Assembly: GCA_000495735.1 (NCBI GenBank)
Contig: AYMD01000008.1
Location: 192,954 to 243,932, forward strand
Direction: 5' to 3'
DNA from: an uncultured Acidilobus sp. JCHS
GTDB lineage: Archaea > Thermoproteota > Thermoprotei_A > Sulfolobales > Acidilobaceae
Length of the DNA stretch: 50,979 bases
Of the stretch, positions 176 to 43,494 are shown in pieces (position 1 is the first letter of the stretch; every line of letters begins with the position of its first letter). The translations under genes and the position numbers were made by a program. Under the pieces are notes generated by a model. It was not told where the DNA came from. It saw only the letters and a list, made by a program, of their open reading frames with translations, and searched no databases.

Positions 176-192
176 AGCGTGATCCGTACGCG

Positions 193-203
193 ATAATTAT
201 AAG
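193..203. promoter_or_regulatory. Shared divergent TATA element
   Basis: The AT-rich block ataattataag reads as a TATA box on both strands. On the plus strand it lies about 40 nt before the ATG at 238. On the minus strand it lies about 25 nt before the presumed start of the left-edge transcript. The rest of the intergenic sequence is GC-rich, so this is the only obvious box. Confidence 0.5.
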
Positions 204-237
204 TGCTCCTAGTGCTGAGGATCATAGCAAAGACTCT

Positions 238-1251
238 ATGCGCCGCGCCTGCGACATATGTGGCGTCAGAGAGGCCGTAGTGTACCAGCCACATACCAAG
301 AGGGCGTTATGCCTTGAGTGCTTCGTCGAAGACGTCGTTAAGAGGGTGAAGAGGGAAGTAGAGAGGTGGTCCCTGATAGAGCCCGGGGACACCGTTTTAT
401 TGGCTCTAAGCGGGGGGAAGGACGGCTATGTGCTCCTTGAGACCATGGTCAGGATACACAAGGCCAGCAAGCTCATAGGCCTTAACATCATTGAGGGGAT
501 AAGAGGCTATAACAAGGAGGAAGACGCTAAATTTCTCTGGGAGACAGCCAGGCAGATGGGCGTTGACGTAATAGTCACCAGCGTTAAGGACTATACAGGG
601 TTAAGCGTAGATGAGATGGTTAGAGAGGCCAGGGCCAGGAGGACCAACATATCCGCCTGCACCTATTGCGGCATATCGAGGCGCAGGATAATGAACTATT
701 ACGCCAGGGAGCTTAAGGTTGACAGGCTTGCGACTGCCCATAACCTAGATGACGAGGCGCAGACCGCAGTGATAAATATCCTGAGAGGTGATTTCATCAG
801 CCTAGTAAGGCAGCACCCCCTCGCTAACATAGTTGAGGACCCTCTTTTAGTCAAGAGAATCAAGCCGCTTAGGAAGATCTACGAGTGGGAGACGGCGACC
901 TTTGCTAAGCTGCGTGGATATCACCTCCAGGAGACCGAGTGCCCGTACATCTACGAGCAGCCTACCCTAAGGGCGAAGGTTAGAAGGGCCCTCTACGCCT
1001 TTGAGGCCGAGAACCCAGGCTCCGTCCTTAACTTCCTTGAGCTGCTAGACGAGCTACTGTTACCTTATGCCAAGACCACGAAGCCCTTGACGGGGCTGGG
1101 GAGGTGTAAGGTCTGCGGCGAGCCTGTGCCGCCTGGCAGGGACTTGTGTAAGCTCTGTGAGCTCCTCACGGGCATAGGGCTTTCAAGGCCTGCCTATGCG
1201 TCCTCGCTGAAGGTCATTAGGCTAGGGGCTAAGTCATGGAGCAGTGCCTGA
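238..1251 (+). CDS. ttuA: TtuA-type tRNA 2-thiouridine synthetase (PP-loop, Fe-S)
   Basis: Adenylates a tRNA uridine and replaces O2 with sulfur. Thermophilic TtuA makes s2U54, taking sulfur from a ubiquitin-like carrier with a Gly-Gly tail. The 337-residue protein has an N-terminal zinc site (C5, C8, C25, C28), the PP-loop SGGKDG at 58-63, cysteines C141, C144 and C235 at the positions that bind the TtuA Fe-S cluster, and a C-terminal zinc site (C290, C293, C304, C307). This architecture separates it from Ncs6 and TilS. The ATG lies about 40 nt from a TATA box with gagga between them. The end overlaps the radical SAM gene by 16 nt. A candidate sulfur-carrier domain occurs in this window at 42754. 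TtuA versus a close paralogue with another target uridine is not settled by sequence alone. Confidence 0.88.
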   Translation: MRRACDICGVREAVVYQPHTKRALCLECFVEDVVKRVKREVERWSLIEPGDTVLLALSGGKDGYVLLETMVRIHKASKLIGLNIIEGIRGYNKEEDAKFLWETARQMGVDVIVTSVKDYTGLSVDEMVREARARRTNISACTYCGISRRRIMNYYARELKVDRLATAHNLDDEAQTAVINILRGDFISLVRQHPLANIVEDPLLVKRIKPLRKIYEWETATFAKLRGYHLQETECPYIYEQPTLRAKVRRALYAFEAENPGSVLNFLELLDELLLPYAKTTKPLTGLGRCKVCGEPVPPGRDLCKLCELLTGIGLSRPAYASSLKVIRLGAKSWSSA

Positions 1252-36812: not shown

Positions 36813-38846
36813 TCAGGAGTAAAGTAGGGCCGCGTGCAGTTTTGAGGATCTAGGGTATAGCCTCACGGCCTCAAGGTTCTCGGGCACTATGACCTCTGGC
36901 GACGTCTCAAAGCCCAGCTTGTCCCAGCGGGTCTTGATAGTTGAGGCCAGGGACGCCAGCTGAGCGGTCTCGCCGTGGTTAAGCACCACTATCCTTGGCT
37001 TCGGCGTGAGCCTCCTCAGGAAGGCCAGTAGCTCACTCCTGTTAGCGTGCCCTGAGAAGCCCTCTATCCTCTGGACCTCCAGGTTCACCTTAAAGGTCCT
37101 CAGCTTGCCCTCGTCCTCGAGCTGCACCTCCTTCTCGCCATCAGCTATCCTCCTGCCCAGGGTGCCTGAGGCCTGGTAGCTCACGAAGACCAAGGCATTC
37201 CTAGCGTCCTCCGCCAGCCTCTTGAAGTACTCCAGTATGGGGCCGCCTACCATCATGCCGCTCGTAGATATTATTATGGCGGGTCCCTGGGTGTAAATGG
37301 CCTCATCCCTCTTGCTCTGATCGTTAACGAACACCATCTGTGGCGTTATGAAGGGGTTGCTGCCTTGGTTCAGCATCTCATCCCTTATCTCCTTAGACAG
37401 GAGCTCAGGGTAGGCAGTATAAATGGCCGTGACCTCATATATGAGCCCGTCTATGTAGATGGGCATCTCGGGTATCTTCTTCTCGGCCATGGCCTTACCT
37501 AGGAGGACCATCATGTCCTGGGCACGGCCTACGGCCATAACCGGTATGAGAACCTTGCCCCCTCTCTGGTGAACAGCGTTTATGAGCTGGAACAGCCGCT
37601 GCTCCGCCTCCTCGCGTGGAGGTGTGTCGGTGCCCCCGTACGTGCTCTCCATGATCAACGCCTCAACCCTATGATATTCTGTGTTCGCGGGCGGCTGAAG
37701 ACGAAGGGCCTTGTTCTCCTTTATGCTGTAGTACTTTATGTCGCCCGTGTAGAGTATGTTGAAGAGGCCCTGACCTATGTGGATGTGAACTAGGGCGGAG
37801 CCCAAGACGTGGCCGGCGTCGCTGAACGTGAGCTTGGCGTCCGGGGACAGGTCAGTAACTACATCATAGTTCACGGTTATAGTATGGTTAAGCATTGTGG
37901 TCAGGTCCTTGAGCGTGAAGGGGGGCTCCTTGCCCTCCTTGACAAAGACGTCTATGAAGTCCTTCAGGAGCAGGGTTGCTATATCCCTTGTTGGCGGGGT
38001 CATGTAGATGGGCCCCCTGTAGCCGTACTTGTAAAGCAGCGGCGCCAAGCCTACGTGATCCATGTGGGCGTGGGAGATCACCACCGCGTCAAGCTCGTCT
38101 ATCCTCAGCTCGGACGCGTCAAACCTAGGGTAGGAGTCAGGCCCGAAGCCGCTCTGTGAGAACCCCACGTCAAGAAGTATCTTGCTCTCGGCCGTGTCCA
38201 CTAGAACGCATGACCTTCCGACCTCGCCAAAGCCCCCAAGGCCTACGACCCTTACATGCCTTGGTCCTACTATCATGTCCCTGTAGATCCTCTCCCCTAT
38301 GTCCCTTAGGGCCTTCCTGCGCTCTGCTGACGCCATAAGGTAGAGCTCATTAATTGAGTACAGGGTCTTGCTCAGCAGCGGCGGCTTCCTCTGAACCTCA
38401 AGCCTCCAGCCCGTCTGCGCAAGGACCTGGTTCCTGAAGGCCTTGCCCTTGCCTATTAGCTTCCCTGGCTTATCCGTCAGTACCCTTACCTCGCCCAGGA
38501 CCTCGTCAAACTGTATATCGCTAGGGTCTATCGTGACGTCCTCGGGGGCGTTCTCAATTATGTACCTTAACGTGAACTCCTTTGTAGCCCTGGCCTTCGG
38601 GTCGCTCCTTACAACTATCCTCTTCCTCAGCTGCTTCGCTAACTCCTTTACCTTCTCCTCGCCCTCTAGCATCCACCTCGGGTTCTTGACGTAGATCGCT
38701 ATCTCAGGGCCCTCGAACTCTATCTTCGTGATCTCGGCGTCGCCCAGGTTCTTATAAATCTCAGTAACTATGAGCCTACGTAGCTGCGTGCCTGATACCA
38801 GGCGGCGCTCCTCTCCTGTCTGGGGCTGACTCTCCAACGCGATCAC
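36813..38846 (-). CDS. aCPSF1 / FttA, archaeal transcription termination ribonuclease
   Basis: A KH-domain beta-CASP metallo-beta-lactamase ribonuclease that ends archaeal transcription at U-rich sites. The 677-residue protein has N-terminal KH domains (about 1-175, with GKLIGKGK), then GLGGFGEVGRSC, the zinc motif HAHMDH (about 256-261), DAGHVLGSA, MESTYGG, the beta-CASP segment with IPVMAVGRAQDMM, and the C-terminal GFSGHANRSEL and VVLNHGE. All catalytic motifs are present. A GTG start is used. A TATA-like box inside the end of psmB (38898-38913) can drive it. Confidence 0.95.
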   Translation of the reverse strand: MIALESQPQTGEERRLVSGTQLRRLIVTEIYKNLGDAEITKIEFEGPEIAIYVKNPRWMLEGEEKVKELAKQLRKRIVVRSDPKARATKEFTLRYIIENAPEDVTIDPSDIQFDEVLGEVRVLTDKPGKLIGKGKAFRNQVLAQTGWRLEVQRKPPLLSKTLYSINELYLMASAERRKALRDIGERIYRDMIVGPRHVRVVGLGGFGEVGRSCVLVDTAESKILLDVGFSQSGFGPDSYPRFDASELRIDELDAVVISHAHMDHVGLAPLLYKYGYRGPIYMTPPTRDIATLLLKDFIDVFVKEGKEPPFTLKDLTTMLNHTITVNYDVVTDLSPDAKLTFSDAGHVLGSALVHIHIGQGLFNILYTGDIKYYSIKENKALRLQPPANTEYHRVEALIMESTYGGTDTPPREEAEQRLFQLINAVHQRGGKVLIPVMAVGRAQDMMVLLGKAMAEKKIPEMPIYIDGLIYEVTAIYTAYPELLSKEIRDEMLNQGSNPFITPQMVFVNDQSKRDEAIYTQGPAIIISTSGMMVGGPILEYFKRLAEDARNALVFVSYQASGTLGRRIADGEKEVQLEDEGKLRTFKVNLEVQRIEGFSGHANRSELLAFLRRLTPKPRIVVLNHGETAQLASLASTIKTRWDKLGFETSPEVIVPENLEAVRLYPRSSKLHAALLYS

Positions 38847-40704: not shown

Positions 40705-42381
40705 TCAGTCTGAGGATGAAGAAGTTGACGACTTACCGCTCTCCTCCTCTTCCTTCTTCTCCTCGGGCTTCTTGCCGGCGCCTGTCTCGGTCCTCTTGGC
40801 CGCGACCATGTCGTCTATCCTGAGTATCAGCGTTGCGGCCTCGGTGCCCGCCTTGTAAGCGTTGAGCTTGACCCTCAGAGGCTCTATGACCCCCGAGGCC
40901 CACATGTCTATGGGGTTCCCGGTATTGAGGTCAACGCCATACCACTTCTTGGAGGCGTCCGAGTGAGAGCTCCTGAGCTTCATCAACACGTCGATAGGGT
41001 CATGACCGGCGTTCGTGGCCAATGTCTGGGGTAGCGACTCAAGGGCCCTCGCGAAGGCCTCAACGGCCAGCTGTATCTTGCCCGGCACTGTCTTAGCCCA
41101 CTCCCTCAGGTGCTTTGCCAGCTCCACCTCTACAGAGCCGCCCCCGGCGACCACCTTGCCGTCCATTATGGCGTCAGCTACGGCGCTCAGAGCGTCATGT
41201 ATGGACCTCTCAGCCTCATCAACTATCCTTTCGAAGCCGCCCCTTATCAGTATGGTCACGCTCCTCGGGTTCTTGGCGCCCTCTATGAAGACCATCTTGT
41301 CCTCCCCTACCTTCCTCTCCTCCACGAGGTCAGCGTAGCCCAGGTCCTCAGGCTTGAGGTCATCTATGTTGGTCACTATCTTTGCGCCGGTGGCCCTGGC
41401 GAGCTTCTCTACGTCGCTCCTCTTGACCCTCCTCACGGCGAGTATGCCCTTCTTGGCCAGGAAGTGCTGGGCGACGTCGTCAATTCCCTTCTGGGTTATT
41501 ACAACGTTGGCGCCCGTCGCGGCTATCTTCTCAACCTTCTCCTGGAGGATCTTCTCCTGCTTATCAAGGAGCCTCTTTATGGCGTCGGGGGAGGATATGC
41601 TTATTTCCATGTCTATCTCAGGCTTCTGTATCTCGAGGGGCGCGTCGAGGACCGCTATCTTGGCGTTGGTCACCCTCTTCGGCATGTCTGGGTGCACGAC
41701 CTCCTTATCTATAACGATCCCGTTGACGAGCTGGGTGTCGAGGAGGCTGCCTCCGTGCTTCTTAACTATCTGAACGTTATTTATGTCAACGTACCACTTG
41801 TCGCCCCTCTTCTCAGCCACGGCCTTAACCGCCTGGACCACCAGCTTAGCGAAGTAATCGCGGGCCTCGCTGACGGCCTTGCTGCTCAGGCTCGTCTTAG
41901 CTACCTTCACCAGGATGTCGTCGTCCTCGTACCTAACGGTCTCTGCCAGCTTGTCTATGAGCTCGCTCGTCTTATCAAGGGCCATCTTGTAGCCCTGAAT
42001 TATGATCGTTGGGTGTATGTTCCTGTCCAGCAAGTCCTCTGCCTGCCTGAGAAGGTCACCCGCGAAGATCACCGACGTCTTAGTGCCATCCCCTGCCTCC
42101 TCGTCCTGGCCCTTGGCGGCCTGAACTAGCATCTTGCCAGCTGGGTGCTGGATGTCCATCTTGTCAAGTATGGTGGCCCCGTCGTTAGTTATCGTCACGT
42201 CGCCAAGGCTGTCGACAAGCATCTTGTCCATGCCCTTAGGTCCGTAAGTCGTCTTAAGTATCTCCGCGACCGCCATGGCTGCCATCATGTTGTTCCTAAG
42301 GGCCTCACGGCCTGCAGCCCTCTGAGTGCCCTCCTTGAGTATAATCACTGGAACCCCCATGGTCTCAAGAGGGACTGACAT
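40705..42381 (-). CDS. Thermosome subunit (group II chaperonin)
   Basis: ATP-dependent protein folding in the double-ring chaperonin. The 558-residue subunit has the equatorial signature [26 protein letters not shown], the ATPase GDGTKTS, the apical region containing [15 protein letters not shown], and [12 protein letters not shown] before the second equatorial half. The C-terminus is a charged Lys/Glu tail ending in a serine run rather than the GGM repeats of some homologues. The crenarchaeal subunit type (alpha, beta or gamma) cannot be told by eye. The promoter is at 42430-42438, with aaggtg as ribosome site. Confidence 0.95.
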
Positions 42382-42510: not shown

Positions 42511-42744
42511 TTGGGGAAGGTCAGGACGTCGCTAGTGAAGAGGACCGCTAGGGAGCTCCTCGCGAAGTACCCAGACCTGTTCACCGAGGACTTTCAGCAC
42601 AATAAGAAGGCTGTGTCCCAGCTGACGGCCTGGGGTTCTAAGAAGCTCAGGAACCAGGTGGCCGGCTACGTGACGAGCCTGGTCAAGCTACAGAAGAAGA
42701 GACAGCAGCTCAGGGCAGCCGAGGAGGGCCAGGCTGCTCAGTGA
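42511..42744 (+). CDS. rps17e: Ribosomal protein S17e
   Basis: Small-subunit ribosomal protein found in archaea and eukaryotes. The product begins MGKVRTSLVKRTARELLAKY, as family members do, and contains DFQHNKKAVSQL and SKKLRNQVAGYVTSLVK. The frame is open from GTG 42502, but TTG 42511 gives the family N-terminus and has ggtg 6 nt upstream, so I use it (77 residues). It is followed 9 nt later by the ubiquitin-like/PRTase fusion gene, with which it is probably co-transcribed. Confidence 0.9.
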   Translation: MGKVRTSLVKRTARELLAKYPDLFTEDFQHNKKAVSQLTAWGSKKLRNQVAGYVTSLVKLQKKRQQLRAAEEGQAAQ

Positions 42745-42753
42745 GGGTTCGGC

Positions 42754-43494
42754 TTGGCCCAGGTCAGGGTAAGGCTTCTGGGGGCCCTCAAGGAGAGAAC
42801 TGATGGCAAGCAGGAGGTCTGGGTAGAGGCCAGGAGCTGGAGCGAGGCCCTAAGGGCTCTGTTAGCGTCCTACCCTCAGCTCTCAGTCGCCGTTGATGAC
42901 CGCGGGAGGCCAAGGCCAGGCTTCCTAGTGTTCGTGGACGGCGTTGACTGCAGGCTCCTTGATGAGGGAGCGCCGGCAAACGAGGTAGACCTGCTCCCCG
43001 TCAACCACGGCGGCGTGGAGTTCAGGTTCGTAACGTGGAATGATGTAGAGGAGGCGATCAGGAGGATCGCAGATAAGATCCAGGCGTCCTCATTTAAGCC
43101 CGAGGTCATAGTCGGCGTTATGAGAGGGGGCGTCGTACCTGGGAGACTTCTGGCTGACAGGCTCGGCATAGAGGACATAGGGGTCATTGAGGTGAAGCTT
43201 TACATTTCGGCCGGCCAGAGAGGCGAGAGGCCTTACCTCAGGCAGCCGTTGACGCTTTCGATCAAGGATAGGAGGGTCCTGCTAGTTGATGACGTAAGCG
43301 ACTCAGGCCTCACCCTTCAGTTCTCGGTCCAGGCGCTGTCGCTATACATGCCAGCTGAAATAAAGACGGCGACCCTTTACATAAAGCCCTGGACCAAATA
43401 CGTCCCCGATTACTACGCTGAGCAGGTAAACGAGTGGGTAATATTTCCGTGGGAGACGGAAGAGTTTGAAAGGGAATATAGGACACATAGGTAA
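42754..43494 (+). CDS. Ubiquitin-like (MoaD/TtuB/SAMP) - purine phosphoribosyltransferase fusion
   Basis: One 246-residue frame holds two domains. Residues 1-87 read as a beta-grasp MoaD-like carrier (VRVRLLGALKERTDGKQ at the start) and end VDLLPVNHGG, the di-glycine (G86-G87) at which SAMP/Urm1/TtuB proteins normally terminate. Residues 88-246 form a 6-oxopurine-type phosphoribosyltransferase: EVIVGVMRGGVVPGRLLAD, then the PRPP loop VLLVDDVSDSGLT. The first PRTase residue, V88, is encoded by GTG (43015-43017), so separate initiation is conceivable. A carrier function would need cleavage after Gly87. Salvage of guanine or xanthine is the likely PRTase role. TTG start; fusion seen directly, processing inferred. 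Confidence 0.8.
   Translation: MAQVRVRLLGALKERTDGKQEVWVEARSWSEALRALLASYPQLSVAVDDRGRPRPGFLVFVDGVDCRLLDEGAPANEVDLLPVNHGGVEFRFVTWNDVEEAIRRIADKIQASSFKPEVIVGVMRGGVVPGRLLADRLGIEDIGVIEVKLYISAGQRGERPYLRQPLTLSIKDRRVLLVDDVSDSGLTLQFSVQALSLYMPAEIKTATLYIKPWTKYVPDYYAEQVNEWVIFPWETEEFEREYRTHR

Follow-up and report, generated by a model that had tools for sequence, protein, structure and literature searches.

In the thermophilic archaeal family to which an uncultured Acidilobus sp. JCHS belongs, the ubiquitin-related modifier Urm1 is encoded as one protein with a purine-salvage phosphoribosyltransferase (PRTase). Its Gly-Gly tail is buried at the joint between the two domains and never lost, and Urm1 very probably must be released by cleavage in this family. 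The fusion gene lies in a 50,979-nucleotide stretch of contig AYMD01000008.1 (hereafter called the window), from the genome denoted G000 below. Its parts and the neighbouring genes that matter here are as follows.

42754..43494, + strand: gene for the Urm1-PRTase fusion (246 aa), from its TTG start codon to the last base of its stop codon
42754..43014, + strand: Urm1-type beta-grasp domain, residues 1-87 (NF053661, profile, AlphaFold2, Foldseek)
43006..43014, + strand: His85-Gly86-Gly87, predicted cleavage after Gly87 (invariance in 32 fused proteins, column entropy)
43015..43035, + strand: joint, residues 88-94, variable in sequence and, at 5-15 residues in the family, in length (entropy, AlphaFold2)
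43036..43491, + strand: PRTase domain, residues 95-246 (PF00156; S. solfataricus HGXPRT 4zfn/4z1o)
residues 175-187 of the protein, within the PRTase domain, + strand: PRPP-binding motif VLLVDDVSDSGLT
42511..42744, + strand: rps17e (ribosomal protein S17e), directly upstream of the fusion, start taken as TTG 42511 (PF00833)
40705..42381, - strand: thermosome subunit, divergent (PF00118)
178..1248, + strand: TtuA/Ncs6-like PP-loop ATPase, candidate sulfur-transfer partner (PF22082, PF01171)

The sequence-only reading had described a ubiquitin-like carrier joined in frame to a PRTase, with a Gly-Gly internal to the protein, and both features were borne out. The survey covered 214 genomes of the order; in the window's own family, 45 genomes gave a urm1 match. 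The same open fusion as in ORF 42754-43494 is present in 43 of these 45, in independent assemblies, which rules out a sequencing error or a missed stop codon. Named carriers include Aeropyrum, Candidatus Hestiella and Candidatus Tiamatella, along with Acidilobaceae MAGs. Scanning GTDB genomes left 80 loci, of which 24 satisfied a strict fusion test; six candidates from farther afield were inspected, and all of them lack the fusion. We found no Urm1-PRTase fusion in the main texts of open-licence papers, and it goes unmentioned in the text of Makarova and Koonin (PMC2948915).

AlphaFold2 modelling of the whole fusion (mean pLDDT 87) gave a beta-grasp fold at residues 1-82, as expected for a carrier domain at 1-87, followed by an unstructured joint at approximately 83-89 and the PRTase from approximately 90. 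Joint residues 88-94 are of low confidence, their sole structure being a short strand at 90-92. Modelled alone, the carrier domain reached a pLDDT of 93, and Foldseek matched it to SAMP1 (3po0) and Urm1 (4wwm) with E < 1e-4 and TM scores of ~0.7-0.8. Among the Pfam signatures, only PF00156, in the PRTase, scores above threshold on the fusion, the ThiS match of the N-terminal 87 residues being below it. The NF053661 Urm1_like model matches residues 6-87 with E 1.2e-7, at 31.8 bits, which is below its cut-off of 70, and the PF09138 cut-off is passed only by relatives. A profile built from 35 relatives (A2) matched S. solfataricus Urm1 (4wwm, E 6e-15) and also yeast Urm1 (2pko).

Residues 82-90 of the fusion read PVNHGG^VEF, the caret marking the predicted cleavage site. 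The carrier thus ends in PVNHGG and lacks a MoaD-type end (PPxSGG); the HGG at 85-87 is that of mature Urm1, yet it is internal in the gene product. The sequence-only reading had likened the carrier to MoaD and TtuB; it is instead of the Urm1 type (PxxHGG), and the HGG end, together with the profile search and the gene neighbourhood, rules out a MoaD or TtuB identity. Upstream of urm1, 43 of the 45 family genomes carry rps17e, and urm1-linked rps17e genes occur in most genomes of most families in the order. Because the rps17e/thermosome arrangement is that described for Sulfolobales urm1 by Makarova and Koonin (PMC2948915), we judged the window's carrier, on sequence and context, to be an orthologue of archaeal urm1. 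Sulfolobales Urm1 (arCOG00540; Saci/SiRe Urm1) likewise has the PxNHGG motif, with rps17e directly upstream and a thermosome gene nearby. It ends at HGG, however, and is described as made mature, whereas the window's Urm1 is joined to the PRTase.

A search of G000 for other MoaD/TtuB genes yielded three further ThiS/MoaD-like proteins, namely a MoaD-family protein adjoining a ferredoxin-type gene (L001), a 76-aa carrier (L002) and a MoaD-MoaE fusion encoded by a separate gene (L003). None of the three is of the Urm1 type, and the fusion is the only Urm1-type gene detected in this genome. The TtuA-like gene that the sequence-only reading had pointed out in the window is confirmed by its two Pfam domains and lies ~41 kb from the fusion. 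The earlier suggestion that the fusion may tie purine salvage to tRNA thiolation stays hypothetical, the ancestral arrangement probably being a simple operon of two genes. Around the fusion, between positions 36813 and 47675, genes for a proteasome subunit, the thermosome, a PAC2 family protein, FttA (beta-CASP/KH) and TGT are clustered.

In the second half of the protein, PF00156 covers residues 97-236 (E 1.5e-23), and structure alignment gave ~37% identity to S. solfataricus HGXPRT (4zfn, 4z1o), which resembles the window's PRTase half and is unfused. Judged by its PRPP motif and fold, this half is a PRTase of the hypoxanthine/guanine/xanthine type.

In families f4, f8 and f10 and in part of f7, the urm1 and PRTase genes are separate and adjacent or overlapping, and urm1 ends in HGG-stop; in f4, f8 and f10 it lies directly upstream of the PRTase gene. 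Since these sister families keep both genes side by side with Urm1 ending in HGG-stop, the fusion would have been born a single time, in the ancestor of the window's family, when the stop codon separating two genes of an operon was lost. A single stop loss is the simplest history that the gene arrangements suggest, and they would place the separate state first. The operon also suggests co-expression, rather than a shared pathway, as the ground for the PRTase partner. Two genomes of genus g6 (L051 in G027, L156 in G069) have the genes separate again. Their Urm1 ends in HGGVFGG or HGGMLGG, with a four-residue tail after HGG that again terminates in GG; the PRTase reading frame overlaps urm1, its TTG start codon lying inside this tail.

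In an alignment of 32 fused proteins, P82, H85, G86 and G87 are invariant, a conservation beyond chance. Mean column entropy is 0.68 bits at positions 80-87, 2.26 bits at 88-94 and 1.19 bits in the PRTase. The residue directly after Gly87 is one of 11 different ones, and the joint varies from 5 to 15 residues. Selection for a free Gly-Gly, or for one that is set free, would leave just such an invariant HGG followed by a variable joint.

G000 encodes one ThiF-family E1 and one JAMM protein (132 aa, G000:C11:21695-22072). The latter harbours the complete E...HSH...SxxD set (E27, H81, H83, S91 and D94), and its orthologues across the order keep these five residues. Its best NCBIfam match is the desampylase entry NF041370, at 49.4 bits and thus below the cut-off of 130. 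JAMM co-occurrence was examined in the 66 genomes of the order that are at least 85% complete and allowed scoring of the Urm1 end as well as of MoaE. Tailed or fused Urm1 and joined MoaD-MoaE were counted as carriers with a buried Gly-Gly, joined MoaE being scored by frame length and the Gly-Gly being read in a sample of 20 loci. A JAMM gene is present in 48 of the 49 genomes with a buried-GG carrier versus 3 of the 17 with none. The exceptions are G155, G156 and G163, with a JAMM and no detected precursor, and G033 (92% complete; congeners positive), with a precursor and no JAMM.

A correlation between Urm1 tails and JAMM based on the Pfam Prok-JAB signature had looked too clean: with a profile of greater sensitivity, Sulfolobaceae too turned out to have JAMMs, of a diverged kind. 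These proteins are catalytically complete, and Urm1 is untailed in that family. Because Sulfolobaceae have both a JAMM and a joined MoaD-MoaE with Gly-Gly, we restated the rule for any buried-GG carrier. The Sulfolobaceae JAMMs (L290-L299) are short, with HxH...SxxD intact, and are mostly missed by Prok-JAB; they are candidates for the Urm1 deconjugase or the MoaD-MoaE protease of Sulfolobus. As a joined MoaD-MoaE would also call for a JAMM and G000 has such a fusion (L003), finding a JAMM cannot by itself be taken as a pointer to Urm1. All four genomes, from two genera, with a tailed Urm1 and a separate MoaE harbour a JAMM, which links the Urm1 tail to JAMM apart from MoaE. At the genus level, JAMM is found in 20 of 20 tailed versus 14 of 28 untailed genera (Fisher p 9e-5; like the counts above, uncorrected for descent); the Urm1 and S17e tree was too weak for a descent-corrected test of this association. 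Family f6 has a joined MoaD-MoaE with Gly-Gly and gave no JAMM match; its Urm1-like protein ends in HRG, not HGG (L276, L277; L046, L049). In family f7, where JAMM is mostly absent, the MoaD-like N-terminal domain of MoaE has lost its Gly-Gly in the two sequences read (L278, L279). In G051, the JAMM and long-MoaE genes adjoin.

Enzymes of this type are known to process comparable substrates. HvJAMM1 cuts SAMP1-MoaE after its Gly-Gly in vivo (PMC4443979), DRJAMM cuts MoaD-MoaE (PMC8832034), and M. tuberculosis MoaX is cut between Gly82 and Ser83 (PMC4326299); the JAMM protein and Rpn11 of C. subterraneum mature SAMP and ubiquitin precursors (PMC6043591). As in the window's protein, a buried Gly-Gly precedes an enzyme in MoaX and in the D. 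radiodurans and SAMP1-MoaE fusions. These are cut after the Gly-Gly, by a JAMM in two cases, whereas cleavage in the window's protein is predicted. Moreover, MoaE is MoaD's own partner enzyme, whereas a PRTase is not known to act together with Urm1.

Elsewhere in the order, the same HGG links Urm1 to proteins other than the PRTase. In two other families, the partner is the KEOPS subunit Cgi121 (PF08617; L040 in G039 at 691-1503, and L155 in G140). Further f2 genomes (L150-L154) encode Urm1 fusions of 158-185 residues whose partner bears no Pfam name, and short Urm1 tails occur in f3 and f5. A Ubl-Cgi121 fusion of Thaumarchaeota (PMC2948915) similarly combines a ubiquitin-like domain with a co-operonic protein beside rps17e; its partner differs from that in the window.

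We consider it likely that the fusion is a Urm1 precursor. Urm1 would be translated as one chain with a PRTase of the hypoxanthine/guanine/xanthine type, and the chain would be cut after Gly87, most likely by the genome's single JAMM/desampylase-like metalloprotease, yielding mature Urm1 with a free HGG end and free PRTase. The sole ThiF/UbaA-like E1 (G000:C9) would adenylate the free end, and the freed Urm1 would then work as in Sulfolobus; in S. islandicus, Urm1 is conjugated to 330 proteins (PMC12625751). As candidate partners for sulfur transfer to tRNA or for conjugation to lysine, the E1 and TtuA-like genes are present. We infer cleavage from the Gly-Gly conservation, the sole-copy status of the gene and the JAMM co-occurrence: with no second Urm1-type gene found in G000, a function needing a free Gly-Gly would need the cut. 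Of the earlier proposal that a JAMM-type desampylase releases the carrier, the protease gene is there, catalytically complete, and the cut itself stays a prediction.

It is unlikely that the protein stays uncut, with Urm1 serving as a fixed regulatory or degradation tag, or as a structural extension, of the PRTase. Many domain fusions are permanent, and AlphaFold2 predicts both domains to be well folded within one chain. However, an HGG held invariant beside a freely varying joint argues against this reading, as do the apparent lack of another Urm1-type gene in G000, the retention of HGG in the two g6 genomes with re-separated genes, and the joining of Urm1 to the unrelated Cgi121 at the same point in other families. 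Slightly less probable still is cleavage by another protease, such as the proteasome nibbling off Urm1 while sparing the PRTase. The 20S proteasome of S. acidocaldarius digests the Urm1 of Urm1-GFP and Urm1-FBP but spares the folded partner, to which a short stretch of Urm1 stays attached (PMC4569737), and genes for a proteasome subunit and a PAC2 protein lie within the window. Nevertheless, that route would destroy Urm1, so that no selection would maintain an invariant HGG, and the JAMM co-occurrence points away from other proteases. Very improbable is the suggestion that initiation at GTG 43015, immediately 3' of the Gly87 codon in the window's genome, gives free PRTase besides the full-length fusion, since a start codon is kept at that site in only 2 of 42 fused genes, the lack of any start codon in the joint of 23 of the 42 rules it out as a general mechanism, and it would leave the Urm1 end unfreed.

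The precursor arrangement also resembles the eukaryotic ubiquitin-ribosomal protein fusions and the Caldiarchaeum ubiquitin precursor, in which the modifier is synthesised in precursor form and freed by a cut after Gly-Gly, as our model predicts here. Those precursors belong to another modifier family, whereas in the window Urm1 is joined to a metabolic enzyme, with the ribosomal gene as an unfused neighbour. Urm1, an archaeal ubiquitin-related modifier and sulfur carrier, is regarded as a link between bacterial sulfur carriers and ubiquitin. It has been described as a modifier made mature and needing no protease (PMC12625751); in the window's family, with 43 of 45 genomes fused, it is not made directly in mature form. 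More broadly, the chances seem evenly balanced that Urm1 is a general N-terminal precursor domain in this order, joined on several independent occasions to unrelated partners from operons (the PRTase, Cgi121, short tails) and matured by one JAMM. If so, Urm1 maturation and equimolar co-production would be subject to regulation, and the system would be an archaeal equivalent of the ubiquitin-ribosomal protein fusions. The archaeal JAMM also gains a concrete predicted substrate, with a cleavage site exact to one bond. With almost all Urm1 found in one family made as a precursor, and sister families with unfused genes for comparison, ideas on how modifier precursors and their proteases originated become directly testable.
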